Origin: Thermanaeromonas sp. C210
GTDB lineage: Bacteria; Bacillota; DSM-521; Neomoorellales; Neomoorellaceae
Reading direction: 5' to 3'
Length of the DNA: 64,000 nucleotides
Assembly (NCBI RefSeq): GCF_013167955.1
Contig: NZ_BLWF01000002.1
Location: 1 to 64,000, forward strand
Under the pieces are notes generated by a model that was not told where the DNA came from, made no database searches, and was given only the letters and a program-made list of their open reading frames with translations. The translations under genes were made by a program, and so were the position numbers. Every line of letters begins with the position of its first letter. Positions within the stretch are counted from its first letter, which is position 1. Shown in pieces: positions 33,657-58,445 of this stretch.

Positions 33657-34415
33657 CTACCTTTTTAGCTTTAACCTGGTAATGGCCGTGGCCAGGGCGG
33701 CGGCACCAAAGCCGTTGTCGATATTGACCACGCCCACGCCGGTGGCACAACTGTTTAACATGGCCAGGAGGGCCGCCAGGCCGCGGAAGCTGGCCCCGTA
33801 TCCCACACTGGTGGGCACAGCAATGACGGGCTGGGCTATCATGCCGGCCACTACACTGGCCAGGGCCCCCTCCATTCCGGCCACCACGATCACAACATCG
33901 GCCCGCTCCACCCTACCCATCTGGTCGAGGAGGCGGTGAATACCGGCTACCCCCACATCGTATATGCGGTCCACCTCGTTGCCCATGACCTCCGCTGTAA
34001 CCGCCGCCTCCTCGGCTACCGGTAAATCGGCCGTTCCGGCGCTCAAGACGGCTACGCGCCCGCCCGTGGGAGGTATTTCCCCTGCCGGGACCACGATGGT
34101 ACGGGCCAGGGCATTGAACCGAGCCTCGGGCAGTTTGTCGGCCACCGCCTCATAGGTCTCTTCCTCCGTCCGGGTTACCAGCACCGTAGCACCGGCACCG
34201 GCCAGGCGGCAGGCAATGGCTACAATTTGCTCCCGGGTCTTACCCTGGCCGAAGATAACTTCCGGAAAGCCGTTGCGCAGGGCCCGGTGGTGATCGACCT
34301 TGGCAAAACCGAGGTCCTCGTAAGGCAGGCCTTTGATCTTCTCCACGGCTTCCTCGAGACTCACCCGGCCTTCCTGCAATCCCTCAAGAAGTTCCCTTAA
34401 TTGGCCTTCCGTCAT
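33657..34415 (-). CDS. larB: LarB: P2CMN synthase for the nickel-pincer cofactor
   Basis: A 252-residue AIR-carboxylase-like protein. The C-terminal domain shows the PurE-like blocks AVLSAGTADLPVAEEAA, YDVGVAGIHRLL, VVAGMEGALASVVAGMIAQPVIAVPTSVGYGAS and NIDNGFGAAALA. LarB carboxylates and hydrolyses nicotinate adenine dinucleotide to make pyridinium-3,5-biscarboxylate mononucleotide, the first step to the nickel-pincer nucleotide of lactate racemase. larC and larE are not in the window, so they must lie elsewhere if the cofactor is made. Confidence 0.92.
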   Translation of the reverse strand: MTEGQLRELLEGLQEGRVSLEEAVEKIKGLPYEDLGFAKVDHHRALRNGFPEVIFGQGKTREQIVAIACRLAGAGATVLVTRTEEETYEAVADKLPEARFNALARTIVVPAGEIPPTGGRVAVLSAGTADLPVAEEAAVTAEVMGNEVDRIYDVGVAGIHRLLDQMGRVERADVVIVVAGMEGALASVVAGMIAQPVIAVPTSVGYGASFRGLAALLAMLNSCATGVGVVNIDNGFGAAALATAITRLKLKR

Positions 34416-43781: not shown

Positions 43782-44869
43782 TTAGGCAATCTTGGCGAGA
43801 CTTTCTTCCCGCTTTACTTCCTGAGCTATCGCCCACATAAACCCTAGCAACTCCCGCGCTACTGCTACTACTGCTACTTGTTTCATCTTTCCCCTTCCTG
43901 TTAAGCGGCGGAACTTTAAATTAAGCCGGTGTTGTGCCTGCCAGGAGATAGCCTTTACCTTCTCCGATTGTCCTTCTTGTCGTTTCTTTAGCCCATAACC
44001 TACGGCCGGTATTCTCTGGTAATGCCAGGCGGCTTCGACTACTGCCCTGCGTATGTGGGCGTTGCCTGATTTGGTGATAGCACCTTGACGCCGCTTGCCG
44101 CTACTGGAGTATTCACTGGGAACCAGGCCAGCATATGACATGAGTTCCTTGGGTGACTCAAAGCGTGTTAGTTCCCCTACTTCGGCTACCACCGTTGCGG
44201 CGGTAATCAGGGCTACGCCTCGTAAGCACTGCAGGGCTTTGATAACTGGCGCCTGGTCACTTTCTTCGGCCAGTACGGCTATCTCTCTTTCCAGACGCTC
44301 TGCCATGGCTTCCGCTTCTTCCAGGGCGTGAATATATTCTTTCAGTACTATTGCCTGCCCGGGTTGGTTAAACCGAATACTATTTAGCCACTGGCGATAT
44401 TTGACAGTCCAGGCTTTTACTCCTGACGGTGGCCTTAAGCCTAACCGTAATAGCAGTTTGCCAATCTGGTTTTTCTTGCGAAGAATATCTTCCTTGGCGT
44501 CTTCATAGGCGCGGGTCAGGTCGCGTAAGGCTTCCTCCTTTTCATCCGGTACCCACACCGGCGTTAATTCGCCGCTCCGTAGTAAACGGGCTAGTTTCTT
44601 GGCATCCCGCCGGTCGGTTTTTATTCGTTCTCCTGGTCTTTGCGGTATTAAGGAGGGGGCTACTACCAGACAGTCAACTCCCATGGCTTTGAGCTGCCGG
44701 TAAATCCTATAACCGCAGGGACCAGCCTCGTAACAGAATAATAGGTTCTCTACCGGTTCTCTTAAGCGCCGCACCAATTTGGCTATCGCTTCGGGTTCAT
44801 TGGCCATACTACCCAGGTTTTCTGCTTCTTCACGTCCCGCTTTGGCAATGGCTACGGAAAGGCTGTATT
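43782..44869 (-). pseudogene. IS110-family transposase, main part lacking its N terminus
   Basis: Open from the IS21 junction (44869). It reads ...LSVAIAKAGREEAENLGSMANEPEAIAKL, then the DEDD RuvC-like domain with CYEAGPCGYRIYRQL and ERIKTDRRDAKKLARLLRSGELTPVW, and the Tnp20 domain with LRGVALITAATVVAEVGELTRF and LMSYAGLVPSEYSSSGKRRQGAITKSGNAHIRRAVVEAAW, which holds the catalytic Ser. Only about the first 20 residues are missing; they are found at 47451-47505. Confidence 0.88.
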
Positions 44870-44974
44870 TGATACTCTAAAAGTTGACCAGATGATCAGC
44901 GAAAAGTTGACCACCCTGGTCACATTCCCTGTTATGCTGAAGGGGACAAACCTTCGGCAACAGGGGGAAAGAGG

Positions 44975-46474
44975 ATGATCGACGTGGTCGATAAGGAGAT
45001 GATCCGCAGGCTCCATTACGTAGAAGGGAAATCCATTCGGTGGATCTCCAGAGAACTGGGTTTTGCCCGGCAAACCATAAGAAAAGCCCTCGAAGATGCA
45101 GAACCACCTATGTATCACCTTAGGTCTCCCAGACCCCGACCTGTGACCGGGCATATCCGGGAGGTCTTGGCCCAGTGGGTGGCTGAAGAACAAAAGAATA
45201 AGCGTCACCTCACGGGAGAACGTATATACCAGCGTTTGGTGGAAGAATACGGTTACACCGGAAGCCCTTCTACTATAAGGCGGCTAGTTGGAGAATTGCG
45301 TAGAAACGCTAAAGAAACTTTTATCCCTTTAGAGTTCCGCCCCGGCAGTAATGCCCAGTGCGATTGGGGTGAGGATGTGGCCATTTTGGACAGAGAAGAA
45401 ACCCTGGTCCAGTTCTTCTGTCTACGTCTAGGATTTAGCCGGATGCCCTTTGTTATGGCCTTTCCCACCCAAAGGCAGGAAGCTTTTTTCGAAGGCCATA
45501 CCCAGGGGTTTATCTTCTTGGGCGGCGTTCCTTTGAGTATCACTTATGACAACTTAAAGACAGCTGTTTTCAAGGTGCTTGCGGGCCGAAACCGCATTGA
45601 ACAAAACAGCTTTATCGCCTTCCGTAGCCATTACCTTTTTGAAAGCCGGTACTGTAATACCGGAAAGGGGAATGAAAAGGGCGGGGTGGAAAACTTGGTA
45701 GGCTTTGTCCACCGCAACTTCTTCACCCCCACTCCGGAAGCTTCGGATTGGGCGGAGCTAAACGAATTGTTTCTTAAGCGCTGTTTAGATTATGCCCGCA
45801 CTCACAAGGTGCCCGGCTCCAAGATGACGGTGTATGAAGCCTGGCAGGAAGAGAAAAAACATCTCCTTCCTCTACCTCCCCACCCCTTCCCCTGCTACCG
45901 TCATATTGAGGCCAAAGCTGCCCAAAACCAACTTGTGCGCTTTGAAAACAATTACTACTCTGTACCTCCCTCCTGTGCAGGTCGCCTGGTGGTGGTCAGG
46001 GCTTACGTTCACCGGGTGGAAATCTACGCTGACCACCGGCTGGTGGCCACTCACCGCCGCTCTTATGGCACAGGAGAGGAGATATATGACCTGGACCATT
46101 ACTTAGAAGCCCTATACCGCAAACCTAGGGCTTTGGAGGATGCTAAGCCCTTTCATCGTGCAGACCTTCCGCCAGTATATCACCGGTACTTGGCGGCCTT
46201 AAAAGAACATCATGCCCAACCGGAAAAGGAATTTGTCCAGATCCTCATGTACCACCGGGAAGTGGGATGGGACGCTCTAACTTTAGCTTTAAATAAAGCT
46301 TTAGACGAAAGAGTTTACCATGCCCCTGGAGTTAGAAGTATCCTTGAGCAGTTAACCGGTAAATGCCTCATTTCCCAAGGAACCCAAGACCTATCAGCTT
46401 ACCGGGTGTCTAGGCCGAACTTAAAACAGTTCGACCTCCTGGGAAGCTGTAATAACGGGAGGATAGTCCATTGA
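44975..46474 (+). CDS. istA: IS21 transposase IstA
   Basis: A 499-residue transposase. N-terminal HTH (MIRRLHYVEGKSIRWISRELGFARQTIRKALEDA), rve DDE core beginning PGSNAQCDWGEDVAIL and including GVPLSITYDNLKTAV and NEKGGVENLVGFVHRNFF, and a C-terminal beta domain. Overlaps istB by 4 nt. Intact. Confidence 0.95.
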   Translation: MIDVVDKEMIRRLHYVEGKSIRWISRELGFARQTIRKALEDAEPPMYHLRSPRPRPVTGHIREVLAQWVAEEQKNKRHLTGERIYQRLVEEYGYTGSPSTIRRLVGELRRNAKETFIPLEFRPGSNAQCDWGEDVAILDREETLVQFFCLRLGFSRMPFVMAFPTQRQEAFFEGHTQGFIFLGGVPLSITYDNLKTAVFKVLAGRNRIEQNSFIAFRSHYLFESRYCNTGKGNEKGGVENLVGFVHRNFFTPTPEASDWAELNELFLKRCLDYARTHKVPGSKMTVYEAWQEEKKHLLPLPPHPFPCYRHIEAKAAQNQLVRFENNYYSVPPSCAGRLVVVRAYVHRVEIYADHRLVATHRRSYGTGEEIYDLDHYLEALYRKPRALEDAKPFHRADLPPVYHRYLAALKEHHAQPEKEFVQILMYHREVGWDALTLALNKALDERVYHAPGVRSILEQLTGKCLISQGTQDLSAYRVSRPNLKQFDLLGSCNNGRIVH

Positions 46475-47247
46475 GCACAGAACTTCTTCTTAAAGAGTAT
46501 TTACACAAACTAAAACTTCCAGCGGTGGCCCGGCACTACAAAAGTCTGGCCCGTACAGCCGCAGAAAACAACCGCACTTATGAAGAATACTTATGCGCTC
46601 TTTTGGAACAAGAGGTATTGAGCAGGGAAGAAAGCGCCCTTAAGAACCGTATCCGCCGGGCCAACTTCCCCTACTTCAAAACCCTGGAAGAATTCGACTT
46701 TACTGCCTTACCAAGCTTGAGTAAACCTAAGGTGTTAACTCTAAGCCGGGGAGAATACATCAAAGCCAAGGAAAATGTCATCTTCCTTGGTAACAGTGGA
46801 ACCGGCAAAACCCATTTGGCCATTGCCCTGGCTTTATGTGCTTGCCGGCAGGGTTGCCGTGTACGCTTTTATACTGCCCCCGGCCTGGTTACAGAACTCT
46901 TAGCAGCTGCCCGGGAACATAAATTACTTTCCTTGGAAAAGCAGTGGCTAAAGCAAGACCTGGTAGTGGTAGACGAGCTGGGCTATGTACCCTATACCAC
47001 TGAAGGAGCCCAGCTCCTCTTCCGCTTTTTGGCTGGCCGGTATGAAAGGGGGAGTGTGCTCATTACTTCCAATCTCGAATTCAGCGAATGGGTACAAGTA
47101 TTTGGAGATGAAAGGATGACTGCTGCCCTCCTGGACAGGCTCACCCATCATGCCCATATCCTGGTCATGAACGGGGAAAGCTATCGCTTCCGTCAGAGTT
47201 TAAGGCGACGCCAAGAGGAAGGATTGGTTAGTTCTGCCTCTGCATAG
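46471..47247 (+). CDS. istB: IS21 helper ATPase IstB
   Basis: A 258-residue DnaA/DnaC-like AAA+ protein. Walker A is FLGNSGTGKTHLAIALA, Walker B VVVDELGYVPYTTEGA, and sensor residues ITSNLEFSEW follow. IstB selects the target and stimulates IstA. The TTG start overlaps the istA stop. Intact. Confidence 0.95.
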   Translation: MSTELLLKEYLHKLKLPAVARHYKSLARTAAENNRTYEEYLCALLEQEVLSREESALKNRIRRANFPYFKTLEEFDFTALPSLSKPKVLTLSRGEYIKAKENVIFLGNSGTGKTHLAIALALCACRQGCRVRFYTAPGLVTELLAAAREHKLLSLEKQWLKQDLVVVDELGYVPYTTEGAQLLFRFLAGRYERGSVLITSNLEFSEWVQVFGDERMTAALLDRLTHHAHILVMNGESYRFRQSLRRRQEEGLVSSASA

Positions 47248-47450
47248 TAGCTGAAAGTATTTCACGTAAGCTAAACGGCGTCCCGAGCCAGCCCGGCCAA
47301 CCTTGGTTAACATTATGCGAGCAACAAATATTAATTAAGCAAAACCAGGAGGTGGTTGCTATTCTAAAATAAGTAAACATAGTCCTAGCGAAACCAAACT
47401 ATACAGGTGGTCAACTTTCAAGAGATCAAGTGGTCAATTTTTCGATTGAC

Positions 47451-47505
47451 AAATACAAATGCTATCCTTGTGAACATCCAGCCCTACATATGTGGTATAA
47501 TTCAT
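47451..47505 (-). pseudogene. IS110-family transposase, N-terminal fragment
   Basis: From ATG 47505 the translation is MNYTTYVGLDVHKDSICI, the exact start of an IS110 DEDD domain (the first Asp in GLDVHK). AAGGAGG lies upstream. It runs into the IS21 end. Joining it to 44869 does not restore the frame cleanly, and the pieces appear to overlap slightly (HKDSI against KYSLS). Confidence 0.8.
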
Positions 47506-47603
47506 CTTGCCAGCCTCCTTAGCTTGTAGCTCTGTATTGGTACCTATTGTACCAATATAACCTACGTATCGCTACTGTGGGGCTGGCCCTTCCATTATGT
47601 CTA

Positions 47604-48617
47604 AGCTACATTATGACCCAGAAATACGGGGAGGGGCTACCCCTCTACCGCCAGGAGCAGCAGTTTAAAAGTTGGGGGATAGACCTTTCCCGGCAGACCA
47701 TGGCCAACTGGGTGCTCCATGGAGCTAACACCTACTTAACCCTTATTTATGACCGTCTCCATGAACACCTTCTTAAAAGAGACCTCCTCCATGCCGACGA
47801 GACTACCCTGCAGGTACTTCATGAACCGGGAAGGGAGCCTACCACCAAATCATTCCTTTGGCTTTACCGTACGGGGCGGGACAGTCCCCCCATAATTCTT
47901 TACGACTACCAGACCACCCGGGCCGGCAAACACCCCCGCCGGTTCCTGGCAGGCTTTAAGGGCTATCTGCATGTTGACGGCTATGCCGGCTACCATGAGC
48001 TTTCGGATGTTACCCTGGTGGGCTGCTGGGCCCATGCCCGGCGCAAGTTCGACGAAGCCTTAAAAGCCCTGCCGGAGGAAAAACGCCATGCAGCAGTGGC
48101 TGCCCGGGAGGGGCTGGAGTTCTGCAACAGGCTTTTTGCCATAGAGCGCGAGCTTAAAGACGTTACACCAGAAGAACGGTATCAAATCCGCCAGGTGCGC
48201 AGCCAGCCCGTGCTGGACGAGTTTTTAGCATGGCTTAAGAAGCAGAAAGCGCAGGTGCTGCCCAAAAGTGCCTTTGGGCAGGCGGTTTACTATTGCCTTA
48301 GCCAATGGGATAAACTTGTCGCCTTTTTACAAGACGGGCGTTTGGAAATTGATAACAACCGCAGCGAGCGTTCTATAAAACCCTTTGTTATTGGCCGTAA
48401 GAACTGGTTATTTGCCAACACCCCGCGGGGTGCTAAAGCGAGTGCTATTGTCTACAGTATCATAGAAACAGCCAAGGAGAATAGATTAAATCCCTTCCAC
48501 TACCTTACTTACCTCTTCGAAAGGCTGCCCAACCTGGACCCGCAGGATAAAGAGGAATTAGATCAACTCCTGCCGTGGTCGGATACTCTGCCCCCCATTT
48601 GCCGGATGAATAATTAA
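47604..48617 (+). pseudogene. tnpC: IS66 transposase TnpC, C-terminal part
   Basis: Resumes at [37 protein letters not shown] and carries the DDE_Tnp_IS66 core: [27 protein letters not shown] with [14 protein letters not shown], and [49 protein letters not shown]. About 337 codons, intact to its stop, but cut from its N terminus by the IS110 and IS21 insertions. Confidence 0.92.
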
Positions 48618-48710
48618 TTAAACTTGTTTTAGCCCCTACCTTAGATGATTCGGTAGGGGTTCTTTGCTTACTACCACAACCCAACAAGGTGGGTAGTATT
48701 TGACGCTTAC

Positions 48711-48718
48711 GTTAATTG
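48711..48718. repeat. Right 8-bp target duplication of IS66
   Basis: GTTAATTG, identical to 40500-40507. Confidence 0.95.
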
Positions 48719-48770
48719 CGCAAGCACGGTTCTGTGAGGGAGGTATGCCGTGAGGCATACCTCTACTCGA
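48719..48770 (+). ncRNA. Group II intron domain V 3' half and domain VI
   Basis: CGCAAGCACGGTTC (48719-48732) completes domain V. It is followed by a perfect 10-bp hairpin GAGGTATGCC-GTGA-GGCATACCTC (48740-48763) and TACTCGA, which fits domain VI and the intron 3' end. No reverse transcriptase remains, so this is a dead 3' remnant. Confidence 0.72.
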
Positions 48771-48933
48771 GCATTATATTTTACCGGACATTATTTCCAT
48801 TGTTTCCATTGACGTTTGACACAAGGTGGATATTTGGATATTATACATTCAAAGTTTTAAGGCCAAGTTGCTACCGAAACTATTATGCTTCCTACCTTAC
48901 TTGATGCCGGAAATTTAAAACTGTTGGCATGAT
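48771..48933. other. AT-rich gene-free stretch
   Basis: No gene or repeat recognised between the intron 3' end and the next IS110-type element. Confidence 0.4.
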
Positions 48934-48977
48934 AAAACCGCAACCCTGACGAATTAATCTACTAGGGTGGGATACAA

Positions 48978-49108
48978 GCAAAGGTGGGTGCAGGCAGGGC
49001 GGCTGTGTATCCCCATGGGCTTAGAGCCCGACAAACTGTTTGGCCGCCCCTCGACCCGCCCAAGTGGGCTAAAAAGCCCGAATAGGTGAGTGTCGCGCTT
49101 ACCTTTGC
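48978..49108 (+). ncRNA. Structured leader of the IS110-type element, candidate bridge RNA
   Basis: Nested inverted repeats: GCAAAGGT (48978) with ACCTTTGC (49101) outside, GGGCGGC (48997) with GCCGCCC (49043) inside, closing GGGC-TTAGA-GCCC (49017-49029), and a separate GGGCT-AAAA-AGCCC (49066-49079). IS110 elements encode a bridge RNA in the non-coding end; position and structure fit, function is inferred. Confidence 0.5.
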
Positions 49109-49140
49109 CTGCCCCAAAAAGAAACGGAGGTGCGTCAGGA

Positions 49141-49894
49141 TTGCGGTATTTTGGCCTTGATGTCCACAAGTCCTACTGCGAGGGAGCAGAGCTTCTGCCG
49201 GATAACTCCATCAGGCGGTTCCGCTTCCCCAACGAGAAGAAGGAGTGGAAGCGGTTCGCCAAAGAACTCGACCGTAACTGCAAGGTGGCGCTTGAAGCCA
49301 CCGACAATGCCTCCATGATTAGAGGCGGAAATCGCGGCCATTGAGAAAGAGTTGAACCTAAGGGCTATTGCCCTGCCCGGGGTGGAGATCCTTCTGGGCA
49401 TACCCGGGATAGACGTCCTGGCCGCCCTGACCATCCTAGCCGAGATTGGCGATATCAAGCGCTTTGCCTCGGCGAAAAAGCTGGCCAGTTTTTCCGGCCT
49501 GGTTCCTTCGGTGCACCAGTCGGGCAAGACCAGGTACACCGGACACATCACCAAGGCGGGCCGGAGCATGCTGCGCTGGGTCCTCATTCAGGTTGCCCAG
49601 ACGGCGGTGAGACAGCCCGGCGCTCTGCGGGACTTCTACTTAACGCTCAAAAAGCGCAAAGGCCATAAGATTGCCATTGTAGCAGCGGCAAGGAAGCTAC
49701 TCACCATCATCTGGGCGATGCTGACGAAGAACACGGAGTATCGCTACCTCAAAGAGGAGTTGCGGCAAAAGAAAATACGCCGCATGCACAAAAGGGCGCT
49801 GCCGTACAAAGTTGACAATGATTTGCCGCAAAAAATTACGTCTCTCGTAGGAGAAGAGCAAACGATGACAGAAATAACCCCTCCTGCAGCCTAA
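49141..49894 (+). pseudogene. IS110-family transposase with central deletion
   Basis: The first 60 codons from TTG 49141 (GGAGG 10 nt upstream) read LRYFGLDVHKSYCEGAELL...CKVALEATDNAS, the start of the DEDD domain. After about 49322 the frame changes and the text becomes EIAAIEKELNLRAIALPGVEILLGIPGIDVLAALTILAEIGDIKRFASAKKLASFSGLVPSVHQSGKTRYTGHITKAGRSMLRWVLIQ, the C-terminal Tnp20 domain with its catalytic Ser. Roughly 150 central codons are gone, so it cannot be active. Confidence 0.88.
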
Positions 49895-50023: not shown

Positions 50024-50518
50024 TTACCACTTGCCGATCATAATAAGGAAGGCCGGGAATAAGAGAGTAACTATCCCTTCTATTGCCAGTAGCCATCCGA
50101 TAAATCTTCCCCAGGCTAGTTTCAAAGCCATAGAAGCAAAAGCCGCTAAGAATAATACCGCCCAGGAGAAAGCGAAAAGACCAAATCGCAAATCACCGGC
50201 ATTGAAATAAAAGTAAGAGGTAAGCGCAACATAAAGTCCGGCCCCCAAGCAATAGTACCCAAGACCAGTCAGATCATAATCGCCAAATAGATCCCAAGCG
50301 AAAATTAAGTAAAACATCGAAAAGGCCATGGTAAGTCCTGCAACTATTAACGTTCCCTCGTCTTTCGCTGTACCAGACGACCATAGACCCAAAACCGCCA
50401 TTAGCGCCCCTACGATGGCATTGGCAGTAGCCGCCCCTTTGGAGTTAACTTTTCCTAGCATAAAGGCAGCATCTACTAGGAAAATAAAAGCGGCAATTAA
50501 CAGGATAATAGCAACCAT
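50024..50518 (-). CDS. AmiS/UreI-type amide or urea channel
   Basis: A 164-residue membrane protein with six predicted helices and no charged loops of note. The order of LGKVNSKGAATANAIVGALMAVLGL, then GTLIVAGLTMAFSMFYLIFAWDLFGDYDLTGLGYYCLGAGLYVALTSYFYF, then GRFIGWLLAIEGIVTLLFPAFLI, fits the AmiS/UreI family, which passes urea or short-chain amides. ATG 50518 follows AAAAGGAGG by 6 nt. Next to an amidohydrolase gene, it probably admits that enzyme's substrate. Family call is by pattern, not by search. Confidence 0.72.
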   Translation of the reverse strand: MVAIILLIAAFIFLVDAAFMLGKVNSKGAATANAIVGALMAVLGLWSSGTAKDEGTLIVAGLTMAFSMFYLIFAWDLFGDYDLTGLGYYCLGAGLYVALTSYFYFNAGDLRFGLFAFSWAVLFLAAFASMALKLAWGRFIGWLLAIEGIVTLLFPAFLIMIGKW

Positions 50519-50536
50519 AAAAATCCTCCTTTTCAT

Positions 50537-50767
50537 TTATTTAGAGGGTACAGACAAAGCTTTTTTGCCTGTACCCCCTTCGAAACTGTACTAAGAACCA
50601 GTGAGTCTCCCCCACGTTGGAGCGTCCAAAGGTAACTCTGGCACCAGCGGCCGTGTTTGGCCAACGTGACCATGTACAGTAAAGCCTAAACTGCGAATTT
50701 AAGCATTAAGAGGCATAATAGCTTCGCTCTTGCCGCGTTCAGGTTTAGAAGCTTTTGTTAAGCCAGA
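50537..50767. other. Gap between the channel and amidohydrolase genes
   Basis: No gene seen. GTACAG (about 50550) and CTGTAC (about 50572) form a small hairpin around AAGCTTTTTT, and CACGTTGG recurs inverted as CCAACGTG about 40 nt on. Either could be a weak terminator or RNA structure. Confidence 0.35.
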
Positions 50768-51547
50768 CTAACTCTGCTTCAATCTACTGACAGCTTGATG
50801 ATAAAGTGAATCTCCTTCGGTTAAGGCTTGAATAATTTGTTCTGCCGTCATCACTCTCGCAAAAGCTCTTCTTAAAGTTCTTAAGGTTGCCTCATGGGCT
50901 AAAGCGTTATCAGTAGCGTTGATATCACTACCAAAGACTACATGGTAACCGCGCGAGTATGCGTCCCTAGCAGTAGTTTCGCAACAAACGTTTGTCAGCG
51001 TACCGCACACGATCACTGTCTTTACGCCTAAGTGTCTAAGAACCATATCTAGTTCAGTACCAGCGAATGAGGAATACGAATGTTTTGAGCGTATTACTCT
51101 TTCACCCTCTTTTGGATATATTTCGTGGTAAATATCGGCGCCAGGGGTCCCTTCTTTAACAGCTCCAGCCTTGATAGGAGGCCAATATTCATACATGTCA
51201 TGAACACAATCAGGGGCAACGTTGATAGCCATGTATATTACCGGAACCCCCAATGTGCGACAAGTTTCAATAACTTTTTTAACGCGCGGTATTTGCCGAT
51301 AGGCTTCAGGAATGCATAAAGGGCTATTAGGATTTACAAAATCCTCCTGTAAATCTACAACAAGAAGAGCGCATTCCTCTTTCTTTATTTCAAACACCCA
51401 GTGCTTGTCTATAAGATATTCTTTTTCCGCGAACATAATAAATTCCTTTTCTCCAGCATATAGTCCTTCAGATTTGAATTCTTCTGGCTTAAGTAGTTCA
51501 TCCTCTTTCCGGCCATAGATTTCTAAATACCTTTTTACCAAGTCCAT
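50768..51547 (-). CDS. Isochorismatase-fold amidohydrolase
   Basis: A 259-residue cysteine hydrolase. An N-terminal extension of about 55 residues precedes the fold. The catalytic triad is visible: D65 in LLVVDLQEDF, K155 in RSKHSYSSF and C188 in TLTNVCCETTARDA. Relatives include nicotinamidase, N-carbamoylsarcosine amidase, maleamate and ureidoacrylate amidohydrolases, all of which hydrolyse an amide to acid plus ammonia. ATG 51547 has GAGGAGG 8 nt upstream. It may end the catabolic cluster or have its own promoter (-10 TATAAT at 51681-51676). Substrate not determinable. Confidence 0.82.
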   Translation of the reverse strand: MDLVKRYLEIYGRKEDELLKPEEFKSEGLYAGEKEFIMFAEKEYLIDKHWVFEIKKEECALLVVDLQEDFVNPNSPLCIPEAYRQIPRVKKVIETCRTLGVPVIYMAINVAPDCVHDMYEYWPPIKAGAVKEGTPGADIYHEIYPKEGERVIRSKHSYSSFAGTELDMVLRHLGVKTVIVCGTLTNVCCETTARDAYSRGYHVVFGSDINATDNALAHEATLRTLRRAFARVMTAEQIIQALTEGDSLYHQAVSRLKQS

Positions 51548-51938
51548 AACGAATACCTCCTCTGGTCTTTGATGTTTAGTGAAGTGCTTGGAAACCAATT
51601 TCTTAGCATTTTTGCATTGGAATGTATGATTTTCTTACATTACATTAAACCTGAACTCAGCAAGTAAATAGAGCCATTATACCTCTGAGAAATCTTGGGG
51701 GAGAATCGCGGTAAGACTGATGACGGGACAGTTCATCACCTCCTCCACTTCCTCAGTGCTAGGTTAGCTTGCTCACTGGACCTAATGGCAACTACTTATG
51801 CACGGCTCGCACCCCCCTTAGAGGTTCTCCCTTCAATAAGGAGCTACCCACCAATTCATATAGTCAGTGATTGTTTCAATAACTGGTTTACTTCCTTTCC
51901 CTTCTATTGCGTACTGTTAGTCTCACCTGGGGAAAGGC
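51548..51938 (-). promoter_or_regulatory. Leader region of the amidohydrolase gene
   Basis: No gene seen in 390 nt between the 481-residue protein and the amidohydrolase. A TATAAT (51681-51676) about 130 nt before the start reads toward the amidohydrolase; the -35 is poor. Confidence 0.4.
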
Positions 51939-53384
51939 TCAGAAAGGAGCTCTGGACCCTGTTTCTCTCTCGACACCCCTCTGCCGCAACCACTTCGGCA
52001 ACAACTCCCTCTCTACGCGTTCGCTAACCTCCGGCGCCTTCTTCAGCAGGAATTCGGCTAAAGGCTCACTTAAGTTTATCCCGCCTATAGCGCCATCAAA
52101 GATCAAAACCTTTCGGGTACCGGTCACTTTGTAAGCAAATTCCATGGCCGCCTCCGTAGTTTCTGCCACCACAGCATGCTTCATATAGTTGAGATTCTGC
52201 GGGTCACGGTTAAAAAGCTCCGCCTGCTCCTGCCCCACTACCACTGTAGGAATGTGCTCGCTAAAGAAGGCGCTGGGATATCCCGTCCAGGCGTAATTGT
52301 GCACGCACATCTTGATGGCCGGATTGAGAGGAGGGATCTCCTTGAGTAGCGGCCTGCCCTGCTTCCCGTAGAAAGCCTCAGTGTACCAGGTATATCCTGG
52401 CAGCGGATTCTCTAAGTCATAGAGGTCGGTATTGGCCCCAGCAAAGTTAGCATAAATTACACCAGCGGAAAATACGTATACCACCGGACAAGGAAAGTCG
52501 AGAGCAGCTATGCATTCGTCTATCTCACCGAATAGGGTCATCATCTTACCGTAATAGCGGCACCCCAAATAGGTTACCCGGTCGTTTAACGCATACAGGT
52601 CATTATCGGCATCCACTCCCATGATGCCATTAGGAGCCACTGTGAGGAAAGAGGCAAAGGCAAATTTGCTCTGGACAAAAGGAGAATCGAAGATAGCTCT
52701 GGCCGTAAAGTTAGCCGCCCGGGGACCCAGGTTCTGGTGGTAAGTGGAGCGGGTCTCGATACGGGCATAAGACATACCGAAAGGCTTTACCGCCCGGTCT
52801 ACCTGGCGGTGAAAATGAACTTCGCGTACATCGGAGTTATGGGCGTGGACAATCCAGTCGGCATCGTATACCTTCTTTATGCCGTATAAAGTGCCGATTT
52901 CCGTCTCTATAGGTATACCTTCATCAATAGGGGCCACTCCGATGGCCTTGCCCTTAAAGTGCTTATCCAGGCCGTAGCGCTTGATATATTCTTCTGTCTC
53001 GCGGAAACGCAAGCCCACGCCGGCCCGCAGGCGTATGTTTGTACAACCCGTGCGGGCCTGGATAACATCCTTCAAGGTCTTAAGCATCTCGGCATAGGGT
53101 TCGCCCCCCAGCAAAGTAAAACCGTGGTGGGAGGCCAGGATGTTTACCGAGTGCTCCGGCTTTATCATGCTCATATCGACCTTTTGGAGGGCTTCCTCGG
53201 TGGCTCTGCGTACTGCCGCGATTCCCTGGTCGCCCGGATAAATAACCTCAGGCAAGTCCGGGAATAGCTCCTTAAGAAGTACCGACGTCATATTCGGAAG
53301 CTCACATACTCTCTTCCGTACTAGCGAAGGATCAATACCGTACTGCGATTTGCGGGGAGGTATTGGGGGTATTGGTGGACGCAT
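51939..53384 (-). CDS. Unrecognised 481-residue His-rich protein
   Basis: I do not recognise this family. It is soluble, with no signal peptide, helices or P-loop. Clustered histidines stand out: H85-H86 in LASHHGFTLLGG, then DADWIVHAHNSDVREVHFHRQV (H180, H182, H190, H192) followed by K200, which looks like a metal or acid-base site. Further blocks are GIPIETEIGTLYGIKKVYDADWI, KMCVHNYAWTGYPSAFFSEHIPTVVVGQEQAELF and VLIFDGAIGGINLSEPLAEFLLKKAPE. The alternation of beta strands and helices recalls the two-domain DUF2088/LarA fold, but the LarA motifs are absent. The start follows GGAGG, and it overlaps the ferredoxin gene by one base, so both products probably work together in the 4-hydroxy-2-oxovalerate route. 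Confidence 0.85.
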   Translation of the reverse strand: MRPPIPPIPPRKSQYGIDPSLVRKRVCELPNMTSVLLKELFPDLPEVIYPGDQGIAAVRRATEEALQKVDMSMIKPEHSVNILASHHGFTLLGGEPYAEMLKTLKDVIQARTGCTNIRLRAGVGLRFRETEEYIKRYGLDKHFKGKAIGVAPIDEGIPIETEIGTLYGIKKVYDADWIVHAHNSDVREVHFHRQVDRAVKPFGMSYARIETRSTYHQNLGPRAANFTARAIFDSPFVQSKFAFASFLTVAPNGIMGVDADNDLYALNDRVTYLGCRYYGKMMTLFGEIDECIAALDFPCPVVYVFSAGVIYANFAGANTDLYDLENPLPGYTWYTEAFYGKQGRPLLKEIPPLNPAIKMCVHNYAWTGYPSAFFSEHIPTVVVGQEQAELFNRDPQNLNYMKHAVVAETTEAAMEFAYKVTGTRKVLIFDGAIGGINLSEPLAEFLLKKAPEVSERVERELLPKWLRQRGVERETGSRAPF

Positions 53385-54004
53385 TACGATTCCCTCCTAC
53401 CTTGTAGGGGTGCCGCAATTACCCGCTCGAAGAGCTTAATGTCCTCGTCAAAGTAGAAACCGCGCCCCGTATATTTCTTTTTCACTTCTTCCGGTATTTC
53501 CCACACGGTGGGAGTACGTCCATACCATTGCCAGCCACCTTTCGGCGGCGAAGGCTCTATGCCCGCGGCCTCCAAGAGGCGCAAGATAGGCTGGATGCAT
53601 TCCACCTTGCACCCGGTGCGGGCCCCGGTCTGGAAAGACACATCCTCGGGGGAACGCGCTCCCTGCAAAATAGCAGCCGCCACTTCCTCGGCCCTGGTAG
53701 CCGTGCAATAGCAAATGATTTGCTCGGGGTGAAGTTTGGCCTTGCGGCATAGTTCTTCTATCTTGGCGTAATCCACGCCGGCTACGTCCACCTGGACCAC
53801 AATAGGCTGTTCGCGCTTTGCCATGGTGATGGCGTACTCCGGGCACCGTTGCTCGCAAGCCGCACAACCCCGGCACCGGTCGGCATCCACCACCGCCTTA
53901 CGGTCCACTACCGAGATGGCCAGCACCGGGCAAACCCTCTCGCAGGTCTTACAGCCCCGGCACTTTTCCTGGTCGACAACCGCCAGTAAGTTAACGACCT
54001 TCAA
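53384..54004 (-). CDS. 2[4Fe-4S] ferredoxin fused to a BFD-like [2Fe-2S] domain
   Basis: A 206-residue iron-sulfur protein. Residues 15-25 and 44-54 hold two C-x2-C-x2-C-x3-C-P clusters. Residues 85-145 look like a bacterioferritin-associated-ferredoxin domain with C98-x-C100 and C132-x3-C136. A 60-residue tail (WEIPEEVKKKYTGRGFYFDEDIKLFERVI) has no match I know. It should carry electrons for a redox step of the pathway, most likely with the overlapping 481-residue protein. It is 2 nt from the aldolase gene. Confidence 0.85.
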   Translation of the reverse strand: MKVVNLLAVVDQEKCRGCKTCERVCPVLAISVVDRKAVVDADRCRGCAACEQRCPEYAITMAKREQPIVVQVDVAGVDYAKIEELCRKAKLHPEQIICYCTATRAEEVAAAILQGARSPEDVSFQTGARTGCKVECIQPILRLLEAAGIEPSPPKGGWQWYGRTPTVWEIPEEVKKKYTGRGFYFDEDIKLFERVIAAPLQGRRES

Positions 54005-54006
54005 TT

Positions 54007-55026
54007 TTAACCCCCTCCCCTCTGTTGTGCCAGCTGATAGGCCACATCAATGATCATATCCTCTTGCCCTCCGACCATCCTCCTCCTTCCTAGTTCCACC
54101 AAAATATCTCTGGGATCCAGGCCGAATTTTTCGGCCGCCCGGTAGGTGTGAAGTAAAAAACTGGAATAAACTCCGGCATAGCCTTGCATAAGGGGTGCAT
54201 TGCGCACTACCTGGGGCCGGTGCATGATGGGCTCTACAATATCTTCGGCCACATCCATTATTTTGTAGAAATCCACGCCGGTCCGGTAACCGGCTCGGTC
54301 CAACACCCCCACCAAAGCCTCTGTTTGAGCATTGCCCGCTCCGGCACCTAAGCCCCGGCAGGCGCCATCCAGGAAAGTGGTGCCGGCCTCCAGAGCCGCC
54401 AGGCAATTGGCCGTCGCCAGGGTCAAATTGTTATGGGCGTGGAAGCCTACCGGCACTTTGACCTTTTCCACTACCGCTTCCACCCGGGCCTTCACATCCT
54501 CGGGTAACATAGCTCCAGCGGAATCCGCTACATAAACGTAATCTGCACCATAGGATTCAAATAGCGCAGCCTGTTCCGCCACCTTCTCCGGAGGTGCCAT
54601 ATGGGACATCATGAGGAACCCAAAAGCTTCCAACCCCATCTTTTTAGCCAGACCAATGTGTTGTTCACCAATATCCGCTTCGGTGACATGGGTAGCCACC
54701 CTGACTGCCTTGGCGCCGCAATCGATGGCCAGTTTCAGGTCTTCCTGCGTGCCTATTCCCGGAAGCAGTAATACAGTCAGTTTCCCCTTACGAATAACTT
54801 CCGCCGCCGCTAGGAGCATTTCCTCGTCACTCAAAGCCGCCCATCCGTAGTTATGGGAGGAACCTGCCAGACCATCTCCGTGGGAAACCTCAATGTATTC
54901 GACTCCCGCCTCATCCAGCCCGCCCGCAATGGCCGTAATCTGTTCCCTGGTGAACTGGTGGGCCACGGCGTGGCTGCCGTCCCGCAAGGTGGTATCTACT
55001 ATATGCACAAATTTACCTTTGTTCAT
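54007..55026 (-). CDS. 4-hydroxy-2-oxovalerate aldolase
   Basis: A 339-residue DmpG/MhpE-type enzyme, cleaving 4-hydroxy-2-oxovalerate to pyruvate and acetaldehyde. The DRE-TIM barrel signature is [37 protein letters not shown] carries the metal-binding His pair, and [19 protein letters not shown] and the C-terminal communication domain ([17 protein letters not shown]) are present. DmpG and DmpF form a complex that channels acetaldehyde; the genes overlap by 4 nt here, as usual. Homocitrate or isopropylmalate synthases are excluded by these motifs. Confidence 0.95.
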
Positions 55027-55898
55027 GCTACCGCTTCCTTTCCCAGCATCCTCGCCGCCAGCCTTTCAGCCACGGCCACAGCCGCTGCGGTTATAATGTC
55101 CAAATTACCGGAATACTTGGGTAGGAAATCCCCCGCCCCTTCCACTTCGATAATAGTAGTCACTTTATTGCCGTCCAGGATAGGCGGCACCCGCAACCGG
55201 TAACCCGGTACGTAGCTCTGGACTTCCTTGACCATTTCAGCTACGGCCTCACGTATGGCCTTCTCGTCCGGATTTTCTACTTCCACATATATTGTGTTGG
55301 TCATGATTATGGGCGGCTCGGCCGGATTCAGGATAATAATGGCCTTACCCTTCTCGGCCCCTCCTACGGCACACAGGGCTTTCGCTGTGGTCTGGGTAAA
55401 TTCGTCGATATTCTGCCGCGTCCCCGGACCGGCGCTTTTGCTGGCAATGGCCGCCACTATCTCCGCATACCGGGCTCCGGCCGCCTGGTTTATGGCGTAA
55501 ACTATGGGCACGGTAGCCTGGCCCCCACAGGTCACCATGTTCAGGTTGGGAGCCTCATACAAATCTTTCAGATTGACCGGTGGTACCACATAGGGCCCTA
55601 TGGCCGCCGGTGTAAGGTCGATGGCGATCTTGCCCGCAGCCTCCAGCTGGGGGGCATGCTGGAGGTGATGTTTGGCCCCGGTGGCGTCAAAAACGATTTT
55701 TATGTTGGGGTCCTCCAGTACGGGTCCTATGCCTTGGGTTGTGGTGCGGATGCCCAGGGAGCGGGCCCTTTTGATGCCCTCGGATTCCACAATTCCCGCC
55801 ATCATTTCCATCTGAAGGTAGCGGCTGCGTAAGATTTTATACATCAAATCGGAACCGATATTACCCGGGCCGATCACGGCGACTTTAATTTTATCCAC
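55023..55898 (-). CDS. Acetaldehyde dehydrogenase (acylating)
   Basis: A 291-residue DmpF/MhpF-type enzyme that turns acetaldehyde, NAD+ and CoA into acetyl-CoA. The Rossmann start [18 protein letters not shown] and the catalytic Cys in [17 protein letters not shown] are intact. Partner of the aldolase. In an acetogen-like cell its acetyl-CoA would join the central pool directly. Confidence 0.95.
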
Positions 55899-55956
55899 TT
55901 ATTAATTAGCCTCCTTTATGACAGCGCTCTAGCTCCAGTTTTACCCCGCTCGCAGG

Positions 55957-56730
55957 TTAAACGAACCGCAGATTAATGGTGCCCAGGCTGTGGAAAGATA
56001 CAGTAAAAACATCCCCTGTCACCGCCTCTACAGCCGCGGTGATAGCCCCGGAAAGTATGATCTCGCCCGCCTCCAGAGCAATGTCAAAAGCAGCCAGCTT
56101 GTTGGCCAGCCAGGCCACGGCTGCCGCCGGGTGGCCCCACACCGCCGCACCGGCTCCCGTATTGACCACCTCGCCGTTTTTCTCCACTACCATACCTAGC
56201 AGGCGAAGGTCCAGGTCTTTAATAGGTACCATCCTGCTGCCCAAGACAAAGCGGGCGCTGGAGGCATTGTCGGCTATGGTATCCGCCAGCTTTATTTTCC
56301 AGTCCCGTATGCGGCTGTCCACTATTTCTATGGCCGGCATAATGCCTTCCGTGGCCCGGAAAACGTCGGCGATGGTCACCCCCGGACCTTTTAAAGTGTC
56401 CCTCAGAATAAAGGCCAGCTCGCCTTCCACGCGCGGCCAGAGTAACTCCTCTCTCCGGCAGGGTTCACCTTCCAGGAGCAACATGTGGTCCAGCAAGTGG
56501 CCATAATCCGGCTCCTTTACTCCCAGAAGGTCTTGCATGGCTTTACTGGTAAGGCCAATCTTTTTGCCTATTATCCGCCGTCGCTGTTTCAGTTTCATCT
56601 CCACTCCGGCCAGCTGGATCCGGTAGGCATCCTCTACGGTTAAGTCAGGATAAGTAGAGGTAAGAGGTTCAATGGCCTTCCGGGTTGCCTCTGCCTCCAA
56701 AAGTTTAGCGGCTATGGCCTGGAAATTCAT
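55957..56730 (-). CDS. 2-oxopent-4-enoate hydratase
   Basis: A 257-residue FAH-fold hydratase that adds water to 2-hydroxypenta-2,4-dienoate to give 4-hydroxy-2-oxovalerate. Metal-binding Glu residues lie in RVEGELAFILRDTLKGPGV and ATEGIMPAIEIVDSRIRDWKIKLADTIADNASSARFVLG, and GHPAAAVAWLANKLAAFD follows. ATG 56730 (MNFQAIAAKL) has AAAAGGAGGT 9 nt before it. 4-oxalocrotonate decarboxylase is a sister family with similar motifs and cannot be fully excluded, but the DSRIRDWKIKLADTIADNAS block fits hydratases well. Confidence 0.88.
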   Translation of the reverse strand: MNFQAIAAKLLEAEATRKAIEPLTSTYPDLTVEDAYRIQLAGVEMKLKQRRRIIGKKIGLTSKAMQDLLGVKEPDYGHLLDHMLLLEGEPCRREELLWPRVEGELAFILRDTLKGPGVTIADVFRATEGIMPAIEIVDSRIRDWKIKLADTIADNASSARFVLGSRMVPIKDLDLRLLGMVVEKNGEVVNTGAGAAVWGHPAAAVAWLANKLAAFDIALEAGEIILSGAITAAVEAVTGDVFTVSFHSLGTINLRFV

Positions 56731-57628
56731 GGTGTTCGCTACCTCCTTTTCCCATACGTTCTTGCCAGTGCTGGCGCAAGACTCCCGCGATTCTCTCGGC
56801 CAAACCGGCATCATCTAGTCCAAAGGCCAGGCCCTCCAGCAAGGCCTGGCAGGCCAGCCGCACTTCCTCATGGGGTCCCGGCAGGGCTACCAGCCGCGCC
56901 ACACCCACCCGGCCCACGGCTATGCGTACCCCTTCTTTGTGGTGGCGGTTATTATCGGGGGTAAATTTTAATATCCAGGGAGTGTGGGCCTGGGGATCCA
57001 GCCGCAAGATAGCCTCTATGTTGCAGTCCTTATCCTCCGCCCCCACACCGCCAGTAGTTACAATAAGGCCATACCCCCGCTCCAGGGCTCCCTCCAGCCG
57101 ATTGGCTACCGCTATTACATCGTCCTCTAAAATCCCTCCAAATTCGGCTTGAAAGCCAGCCCCGGTCAGAGCCTCTATGAGATAGGGCGAATTGGTATCG
57201 CGAATTTTCCCTGCCAGCACTTCACTGCCTGAAGCGAAGATCAGGGCTCTGCGCGCTACAGCTTGGCTAATTTCCGAGGCCAGCCGGGCTGAAGCTGAAA
57301 GTATCTCCCGGGCCTCACCCGGTTCCAGGGCGATCAGCCCCAATACTCCTTCTGAGTGAACTCCGGCCTCGGGTCCCAGGATTACACCCGGAACCTCCTT
57401 AAGCCGCTTCAAAATCTCCTTTTCCTTACCGGCTACAGCCTCCGCCTGTACCCGGCGCCGCAAGATATCAAAGGCTACCAGGCCCGGCCGCACGTCCACT
57501 ACCATAACTTCGTGAACCTTAAGATGTAGGGCCTCAGCGGCGGCAGCCGCCACCTGCCCCAGGTCGGCTCCGCGAAGGTCTACATCTTGAACCCAAAAGG
57601 TAGTTTTCTCTAGCAAATCCCATTCCAT
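56705..57628 (-). CDS. MoCF (molybdopterin-binding) domain protein
   Basis: A 307-residue protein. The N-terminal 160 residues are not familiar to me. The C-terminal part is a MoaB/MogA/CinA-type fold: LIFASGSEVLAGKIRDTNSPYLIEALTGAGF, LIVTTGGVGAEDKDCNIEAIL and LVALPGPHEEVRLACQALLEG. MoCF domains bind molybdopterin or adenylated intermediates, but CinA-like relatives act on pyridine nucleotides. The start at 57628 has GGGGAGAA upstream. It lies between the NadC-like gene and the hydratase, overlapping the latter by 26 nt. Confidence 0.75.
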   Translation of the reverse strand: MEWDLLEKTTFWVQDVDLRGADLGQVAAAAAEALHLKVHEVMVVDVRPGLVAFDILRRRVQAEAVAGKEKEILKRLKEVPGVILGPEAGVHSEGVLGLIALEPGEAREILSASARLASEISQAVARRALIFASGSEVLAGKIRDTNSPYLIEALTGAGFQAEFGGILEDDVIAVANRLEGALERGYGLIVTTGGVGAEDKDCNIEAILRLDPQAHTPWILKFTPDNNRHHKEGVRIAVGRVGVARLVALPGPHEEVRLACQALLEGLAFGLDDAGLAERIAGVLRQHWQERMGKGGSEHHEFPGHSR

Positions 57629-57650
57629 CTTTTTCTCCCCAATGATTTGA

Positions 57651-58445
57651 TCATCTTCGAACATCCAAACTAAAGTCTAACAACGGAGCATCGATAATGG
57701 CCCGGCCGACATCTACAATGTCGGCCCCGGCAGCAATTACTCTGTCAAGATCCCCCTTTTTTACGCCCCCACCAAAAGCTAGCTTAACTTGGTCCCGGAA
57801 ATTCTCCTCCAGGGCCGCTTCCCTTACCAGCACCAGGTCCTCTAACTTACCGGTATCCACCATGAGGATACGTGCTCCCTCTCTCGCAGCTTCTCCGGCT
57901 TCCTCTGCCAAGGGAGCGCTTTCACCCCGCAGTTGAACTACCACTACTCTCCCCTCTAGCGCCCGGGCCCTGCGTACCGCCGGACCTATACCCCCGAACA
58001 TGCGGACATAATTTTTATCGAGGTAGACAAAGGGCTCCTCTGTAATCCGGATTCCTGCTCCGCCGGTAGCTACGGCCCGGCGTAAATCCTGCCTTACCTC
58101 AGGTGGCACTTTCTTCCAGGCACCACAGACAATGCTCACCCTGCCCTGGGCACGACTCACCATCTGCGCCGCTGCTGTAGCTACACCCGACGCTTTGCCA
58201 ATCCAGCCAAGGAGTTGCTCTTCCGCCCGAGCTATCTGCCAGGCATCACCCCAGGCTCGGCAGATGCAGGTCCCTCTCTCAAGCTGCATACCCTCCGAAG
58301 CTATCCATTCGAGTTTCAGTCCCAGCTCCCGAGCTCCTGCCTGCAGCTTATCTGTACCGGCTAAAATGCCCTCCTGTCTAGCTGTAATTTCTAGAAGAAA
58401 CAAATCCCCCCCTAGGGGTGTAAATAGAAAATCCCTCACATCCAA
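57651..58445 (-). CDS. NadC/ModD-like phosphoribosyltransferase homologue
   Basis: A 264-residue relative of quinolinate phosphoribosyltransferase. The split N-terminal half and barrel are recognisable: ASGVATAAAQMVSRAQG, then VCGAWKKVPPEVRQDLRRAVATGGAGIRITEEPFVYLDKNYVRMFGG in place of the family's ARKTTPGxR and KDNH blocks, ILMVDTGKLED, and FGGGVKKGDLDRVIAAGADIVDVGRAI. Several active-site basic residues differ from NadC, so it probably takes another substrate, as ModD proteins do. TTG start at 58445 with GAGGA upstream. First gene of the catabolic operon. Confidence 0.75.
   Translation of the reverse strand: MDVRDFLFTPLGGDLFLLEITARQEGILAGTDKLQAGARELGLKLEWIASEGMQLERGTCICRAWGDAWQIARAEEQLLGWIGKASGVATAAAQMVSRAQGRVSIVCGAWKKVPPEVRQDLRRAVATGGAGIRITEEPFVYLDKNYVRMFGGIGPAVRRARALEGRVVVVQLRGESAPLAEEAGEAAREGARILMVDTGKLEDLVLVREAALEENFRDQVKLAFGGGVKKGDLDRVIAAGADIVDVGRAIIDAPLLDFSLDVRR

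Follow-up and report, generated by a model that had tools for sequence, protein, structure and literature searches.

Proteins of the LarA superfamily, whose pincer-type cofactor is a known hydride carrier, are met in the context of hydroxy-acid isomerization. The lower pathway of aerobic meta-cleavage (DmpE-DmpF-DmpG or MhpD-F-E) is built from a hydratase, an acetaldehyde dehydrogenase and an aldolase, and the aerobic pathway for furoate and 5-hydroxymethylfurfural (HMF) of Cupriavidus (HmfABCDE, HmfFG) runs via furoyl-coenzyme A (furoyl-CoA) and a molybdenum hydroxylase to 2-oxoglutarate. Anaerobes, for their part, dearomatize aromatic acids reductively by aryl-CoA reductases of the benzoyl-CoA or naphthoyl-CoA type. 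Here we compare with these systems a gene cluster of Thermanaeromonas sp. C210, located in the first 64,000 nucleotides of contig NZ_BLWF01000002.1 (assembly GCF_013167955.1); this whole stretch is called the window. The cluster ends with a 481-residue protein, encoded at 51939..53384 on the minus strand, for which we coin the name LarX. We think it somewhat more probable than otherwise that this cluster would be an oxygen-independent route for furan-2-carboxylate (2-furoate) and for compounds that funnel into 2-furoate.

The cluster contains the same three enzymes as the aerobic meta-cleavage lower pathway, from the same families and in the same order. It differs from it by having neither an extradiol dioxygenase nor the pathway's hydrolase, by its strictly anaerobic hosts, and by an aldolase/dehydrogenase pair that is optional, a 2-oxoacid:ferredoxin oxidoreductase being found instead in several genomes. 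With the aerobic furoate pathway, related clusters share the step from furandicarboxylate to 2-furoate, a decarboxylation by UbiD/UbiX of HmfF/HmfG type, but they have no conserved CoA ligase and the proposed products are pyruvate and acetyl-CoA. As with the aryl-CoA reductases, an anaerobe would break the aromaticity of an acid by reduction, but with no CoA thioester and no ATP- or tungsten-dependent reductase; our proposal has the acid react in free form, with hydride delivered by a pincer-type carrier. The LarX family, and the oxygen-free opening of a furan as free acid that we propose for it, match no described system. In the open-access literature searched, we found no anaerobic furan ring-opening enzyme and nothing relevant that combined nickel-pincer or lactate racemase with furans.

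All nine reading frames of the region were confirmed, and all lie on the minus strand. Seven of them form a tight operon, from 58445 down to 51939, in the order QRP (QRPTase/NadC-like), MoCF, hydratase (Hyd), acetaldehyde dehydrogenase, aldolase, iron-sulfur protein (FeS) and LarX, with gaps of 0-60 bp or small overlaps from QRP through LarX. Larger gaps follow, of about 390 bp before an isochorismatase-type hydrolase and about 230 bp before a channel. Homologues moved three start sites inward, those of the hydratase (56730), MoCF (57628) and the hydrolase (51547). The initial annotation had described a contiguous hydratase, aldolase and acetaldehyde dehydrogenase together with an unknown 481-residue protein, and both coordinates and family models agree with it; its family assignments also hold by Pfam and NCBIfam, the other genes being matched as QRPTase_N/C, MoCF_biosynth, Isochorismatase, AmiS_UreI and iron-sulfur protein.

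The same annotation had advised a search for this gene set in other genomes. Results showed that LarX occurs in 58 loci of public genomes, from anaerobes of several phyla, including Moorella, Desulfosporosinus, Sporomusa, Flavonifractor, Oscillibacter, Dethiosulfatibacter, Geosporobacter, Clostridium luticellarii, the spirochaete Breznakiella, Desulfovibrio and metagenome-assembled genomes (MAGs) of Syntrophaceae; in an even sample of the phylum, 26 of 399 genomes carry it. The recurring core is QRP, MoCF, Hyd, FeS and LarX, all five being present in 41 of the 58 loci, and the FeS gene adjoins LarX in nearly all of them. Gene order is kept at 73-94% LarX identity across these phyla, and given this recurrence the cluster is far beyond chance. 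Loci without the full core are nearly all short contigs, the real exceptions being L030, L036, L040 and the divergent L074. No distant LarX paralogue outside the tight family was found across the phylum. L074 holds the sole divergent LarX (45% identity, H190 replaced by Tyr), which perhaps acts on a different substrate; there (L074:2503-4508) LarX and FeS stand beside what by eye appear to be CoA-transferase and acyl-CoA ligase genes, with no QRP, MoCF or hydratase nearby. A 64-residue N-terminal LarX fragment at G008:C2:803114-803305, apart from the main copy and adjoining an FeS gene and LarC, is a remnant of a second cluster. Classical LarA homologues (Lar_N) also lie inside some LarX clusters (L040:5315-6703, L044:15208-16500, L065:6200-7498), the one of L044 next to xanthine-dehydrogenase-type subunits.

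LarX gave no match to Pfam or NCBIfam at E 0.01, including Lar_N (PF09861) and the LarAH models, and a PDB profile search with it gave nothing significant. Its AlphaFold model (predicted local distance difference test, pLDDT, 83; predicted template modelling score, pTM, 0.87) gave three Foldseek matches below 1e-3, all of LarA type (E 1.8e-8 to 4e-6, probability 1.00): the lactate racemase 8ezh (E 1.8e-8) and the malate racemases (Mar2) 7s91 and 6d6z. LarA holds its nickel-pincer nucleotide through Lys184, the tether, and His200, a nickel ligand; its catalytic pair is His108 and His174 (PMC9283937, PMC12393405). All 69 LarX sequences have K200 and H216, and 68 of them have H190, with spacings of 10 and 16 residues between the three, as in LarA; the equivalence of these positions is taken from the spacing and from the register of a weak profile alignment. 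LarX thus resembles the LarA superfamily in its predicted fold, in Lys and His cofactor positions at LarA spacing and in frequent linkage to larB, larC or larE. It differs by the missing sequence-family match, by Leu or Met in place of the first catalytic His, and by its context of ring degradation with dedicated FeS, QRP and MoCF. As modelled, LarX is LarA-like in fold and cofactor residues, yet it misses two defining LarA features and is not classed as LarA. From this fold, the conserved Lys and His and the neighbouring larBCE genes, we infer that it binds a nickel-pincer-type cofactor.

The genes next to the core point to the substrate. A BenE-type permease is found in 32 LarX loci and a UbiD decarboxylase in 11, the two never together (p 5e-6, relatedness not corrected), and the UbiD loci also have transporters, either for dicarboxylate (MatC) or of TRAP type, and in many cases UbiX. 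The nearest PDB structure of the cluster UbiDs is 6h6v (E 1e-173 to 1e-195; next structure, E 1e-64). This is HmfF of the anaerobe Pelotomaculum thermopropionicum (PtHmfF), which interconverts 2,5-furandicarboxylate and 2-furoate (PMC8988006, PMC6644310, PMC8252502); identity to it is 56-66% in 10 of the 11 UbiD loci. Several LarX loci are adjoined by aldehyde ferredoxin oxidoreductases and Fe-alcohol dehydrogenases, and a related tungsten enzyme oxidizes furfural to furoate (PMC9424855). The free acid would come from different sides, by BenE permease, by dicarboxylate transporter and HmfF-type UbiD, or by aldehyde oxidoreductase and Fe-alcohol dehydrogenase, and, as far as sequence tells, they lead to a heteroaromatic monocarboxylate in free form, for which 2-furoate is the simplest choice. 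The annotation's proposal of an N-containing or pyridine acid finds no support here, as the channel and hydrolase that had suggested it are replaced elsewhere by BenE or HmfF-type UbiD. Next to the BenE permease, a gene for an M24 "peptidase" (L023:12819-13922 and 27 homologues) is conserved in about 30 loci; both canonical metal-binding Asp are lost, being changed to His and Lys, and so is the His ligand, now Tyr, and it is probably a creatinase-like non-metal enzyme.

The lower enzymes are assigned by family. The aldolase matches TIGR03217 at 534 bits (cut-off 286) and the acetylating acetaldehyde dehydrogenase TIGR03215 at 452 bits (cut-off 282); the best model of the hydratase is DmpE TIGR03220 (321 bits, E 6e-96), under the family cut-off of 409, and it keeps the E-x-E and E-x-x-D motifs. 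Some loci with the hydratase have no aldolase, and in 6 of these 10 a pyruvate:ferredoxin-oxidoreductase-type gene is adjoining, against 0 of 34 loci with the aldolase (p 3e-5). Of the remaining four, two stop at a contig end, a related oxidoreductase occurs in L038, and L041 carries an aldolase of the DapA family. In those aldolase-less genomes that were searched whole, the aldolase was absent elsewhere too. Probably, a 2-oxoacid:ferredoxin oxidoreductase stands in for the missing aldolase, converting 4-hydroxy-2-oxovalerate to 3-hydroxybutyryl-CoA and CO2. That hydratase and LarX persist where the lower branch is exchanged speaks for a C5 2-oxo acid as product.

Putting these elements together, we propose the following route. 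LarX, a distant LarA-superfamily protein carrying a nickel-pincer-type nucleotide cofactor, would receive two electrons from the FeS protein. C5 of 2-furoate would take a hydride, and a proton would be added, breaking aromaticity with a carboxylate-stabilized carbanion; a vinylogous elimination would then expel the ring oxygen from C5 to give 2-hydroxypenta-2,4-dienoate, the substrate of the hydratase. Adding two electrons and two protons to 2-furoate (C5H4O3) gives the composition of 2-hydroxypenta-2,4-dienoate (C5H6O3). By family, the hydratase should form 4-hydroxy-2-oxovalerate, the aldolase should split it into pyruvate and acetaldehyde, and the dehydrogenase should turn acetaldehyde into acetyl-CoA and NADH, repaying the two electrons, so that the overall conversion would need no external redox. 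The elemental balance is exact: 2-furoate + H2O + CoA = pyruvate + acetyl-CoA. In aldolase-less genomes, the oxidoreductase would act on 4-hydroxy-2-oxovalerate to give 3-hydroxybutyryl-CoA, CO2 and reduced ferredoxin, redox-balanced as well. Going further, and tentatively, since we put it below an even chance, LarX could be a net reductase, the first among pincer-nucleotide enzymes, dearomatizing and opening the furan of the free acid with ferredoxin electrons, with QRP and MoCF making or maturing a variant pincer cofactor and LarBCE sometimes dispensable.

Several observations weigh against this proposal. We know of no pincer enzyme with net redox activity, and the position of LarA His108, the first catalytic His, is the one lost in LarX. 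The homology of LarX to LarA rests on the predicted fold, the sequence-profile link being insufficient by itself: hhalign of the LarX family with 13 LarA homologues fell short of significance owing to the shallowness of that family, though it aligned in the same register as the Lys/His spacing. LarX of L030 has no QRP or MoCF nearby, and no LarB, LarC or LarE was found in the genomes of Breznakiella homolactica (G113) and Oscillibacter sp. 1-3 (G116). PtHmfF accepts pyrrole-2-carboxylate as well, and furan is therefore not the sole five-membered ring option. Moreover, the genome of the window has no BenE over the cut-off (HmfF was outside that search).

The nickel-pincer cofactor of LarA is made by the products of larB, larC and larE, and in many loci at least one of these genes stands no more than 10 kb from LarX. 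LarC is present in 45 of 48 LarX genomes and, among relatives, in 17 of 18 LarX genomes versus 50 of 83 others (Fisher p 0.005, relatedness not corrected). Moorella thermoacetica (G009), the source of a biochemically studied LarC, has both LarX and LarC, and no Lar_N protein was found in its genome; LarX may be its missing pincer client. In the genome of the window, LarB is inside the window and LarE and LarC are elsewhere on the contig (C2:604.5-606.7 kb). The MoCF domain matches gephyrin E, MoeA, MoaB and CinA in fold, and a profile of its N-terminal 135 residues finds 28 of the 399 genomes, namely all 26 LarX genomes and 2 of 373 others, of which G418 (L156) has its cluster cut by a contig end and G069 (L155) a decayed copy. 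QRP reaches 104 bits with the NadC model (cut-off 198) and keeps K84, K111, K112, R133 and K144, with altered NadC motifs; it is, by sequence, a divergent NadC homologue that retains basic residues of active-site type. A single fused protein comprises QRP and MoCF in two Desulfovibrio MAGs from termite gut (L062:1617-3431, L063:3363-5159). A pair for a pyridine mononucleotide cofactor is thus plausible, and QRP and MoCF would build, modify or load the cofactor of LarX. The NadC-like protein had been read as a hint of pyridine use, but the two look like cofactor enzymes; pyridine or nicotinate catabolism via this gene was rejected, as it falls far under the NadC model and pairs, even by fusion, with MoCF. 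As no LarBCE was found in G113 and G116, QRP and MoCF could supply the cofactor there, and LarX might in general combine a LarA fold with a different, LarBCE-independent pyridine or pterin nucleotide. Near-universal and sometimes fused partners, and the likeness of MoCF to the metal insertases MoeA and gephyrin, would fit this possibility, to which we give a minor but real share of belief; it is opposed by larBCE inside the cluster in many phyla and by the invariance in LarX of the two residues, Lys and His, by which the nickel pincer is held.

Our proposal of 2-furoate must also be weighed against reductive opening, by the same machinery, of a different heteroaromatic acid with a five-membered ring, be it pyrrole-2-carboxylate or a substituted furoate. 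Opening of the pyrrole would yield 2-aminopentadienoate, to be hydrolysed to 2-oxopent-4-enoate and ammonia, and the balance closes as well for pyrrole-2-carboxylate; the tolerance of PtHmfF and the amide-type channel adjoining the cluster in the window also speak for it. We nonetheless find it unlikely, considering that the cluster UbiDs are closest to a furandicarboxylate decarboxylase, that the aldehyde oxidoreductase and alcohol dehydrogenase modules better suit furfural and furfuryl alcohol, and that the clusters have no conserved deaminase. Less likely still, LarX would act on an alpha-hydroxy acid as an isomerase or dehydrogenase of LarA type, turning for instance 2-hydroxy-4-pentenoate into 2-oxo-4-pentenoate with FeS as electron acceptor, while another enzyme opens the ring. 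All characterized LarA homologues have alpha-hydroxy acids as substrates (PMC7583248), the lone catalytic His of LarX fits a half-reaction and the product would feed the same hydratase; however, the clusters hold no other conserved candidate for ring opening, BenE and HmfF-type UbiD indicate a heteroaromatic acid instead, and an FeS neighbour suits redox better than isomerization. The novelty of the system would be lower if LarX turned out to be a hydroxy-acid isomerase.

A remnant of an aerobic meta-cleavage pathway with its oxygenase encoded elsewhere was rejected as very improbable: the hydratase, aldolase and dehydrogenase are of families used in such pathways and 29 of 32 of these genomes carry LigB-type genes, but the LigB open frames are mostly of 420-530 residues, the hosts are strict anaerobes and a meta-pathway would have no use for the five core genes. 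No cluster contains an extradiol dioxygenase, and the sole LigB-type gene of the window's genome is a LigB-AMMECR1 fusion rather than a catechol dioxygenase, type I enzymes not having been searched genome-wide. The annotation's idea of an upper pathway that reaches the same C5 intermediate without oxygen is therefore supported, since no related cluster includes an oxygenase.

The features of the window are collected below. The hydrolase and the channel, which had been counted as cluster members, are outside the conserved cluster: no LarX-linked homologue of the hydrolase was found in other loci, and the AmiS channel recurs only in two Moorella-family loci, where a xanthine-dehydrogenase-type set and, besides LarX, a classical LarA homologue accompany it. 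An amide substrate was rejected on this ground, though in the window's genome the two could perhaps serve as the entry module. A run of transposase genes (resembling IS110, IS21 IstA/IstB and IS66 types by eye) occupies 43782-49894, immediately downstream of the channel gene, and is possibly the trace of a rearrangement in which a BenE or UbiD module was lost. Scans for promoters and terminators gave chance level only.

Table. Genes of the LarX cluster and associated features in the window
Feature	Position	Strand	Basis and remarks
QRP, QRPTase/NadC-like, 264 residues	57651..58445	-	PF01729/PF02749; proposed pyridine-nucleotide cofactor enzyme
MoCF, unique N-terminal domain and MogA/MoeA/CinA-type domain	56705..57628	-	PF00994; proposed cofactor nucleotide/metal step
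Hyd, 2-hydroxypenta-2,4-dienoate (2-oxopent-4-enoate) hydratase, DmpE type, 257 residues	55957..56730	-	TIGR03220
Acetaldehyde dehydrogenase (acetylating)	55023..55898	-	TIGR03215, 452 bits
4-Hydroxy-2-oxovalerate aldolase with DmpG communication domain	54007..55026	-	TIGR03217, 534 bits; PF07836
FeS, 2 x [4Fe-4S] and BFD-like [2Fe-2S]	53384..54004	-	PF00037, PF04324; proposed electron donor of LarX
LarX, 481 residues, LarA-like fold	51939..53384	-	AlphaFold and Foldseek; proposed pincer-dependent ring-opening reductase
Isochorismatase-family hydrolase (possible amidase)	50768..51547	-	PF00857; accessory, not conserved
AmiS/UreI-type channel	50024..50536	-	PF02293; accessory, also in L044 and L146
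LarB, pincer cofactor biosynthesis	33657..34415	-	55% identity to cluster-linked LarB; same window, apart from the cluster

Heating of plant biomass and foods yields furans such as furfural, HMF, furoate and furandicarboxylate as major products. For their anaerobic opening, the LarX cluster offers a concrete, widely conserved candidate in acetogens, sulfate reducers and gut Clostridia. About 15% of genomes hold larB, larC and larE without larA, implying unknown pincer-binding proteins (PMC11796402); LarX bears on this question, M. thermoacetica being a case here. If our proposal is true, the nickel-pincer cofactor would extend from hidden-redox isomerases to net reductive dearomatization, a new mode of breaking aromaticity that would be distinct from oxygenases and aryl-CoA reductases.

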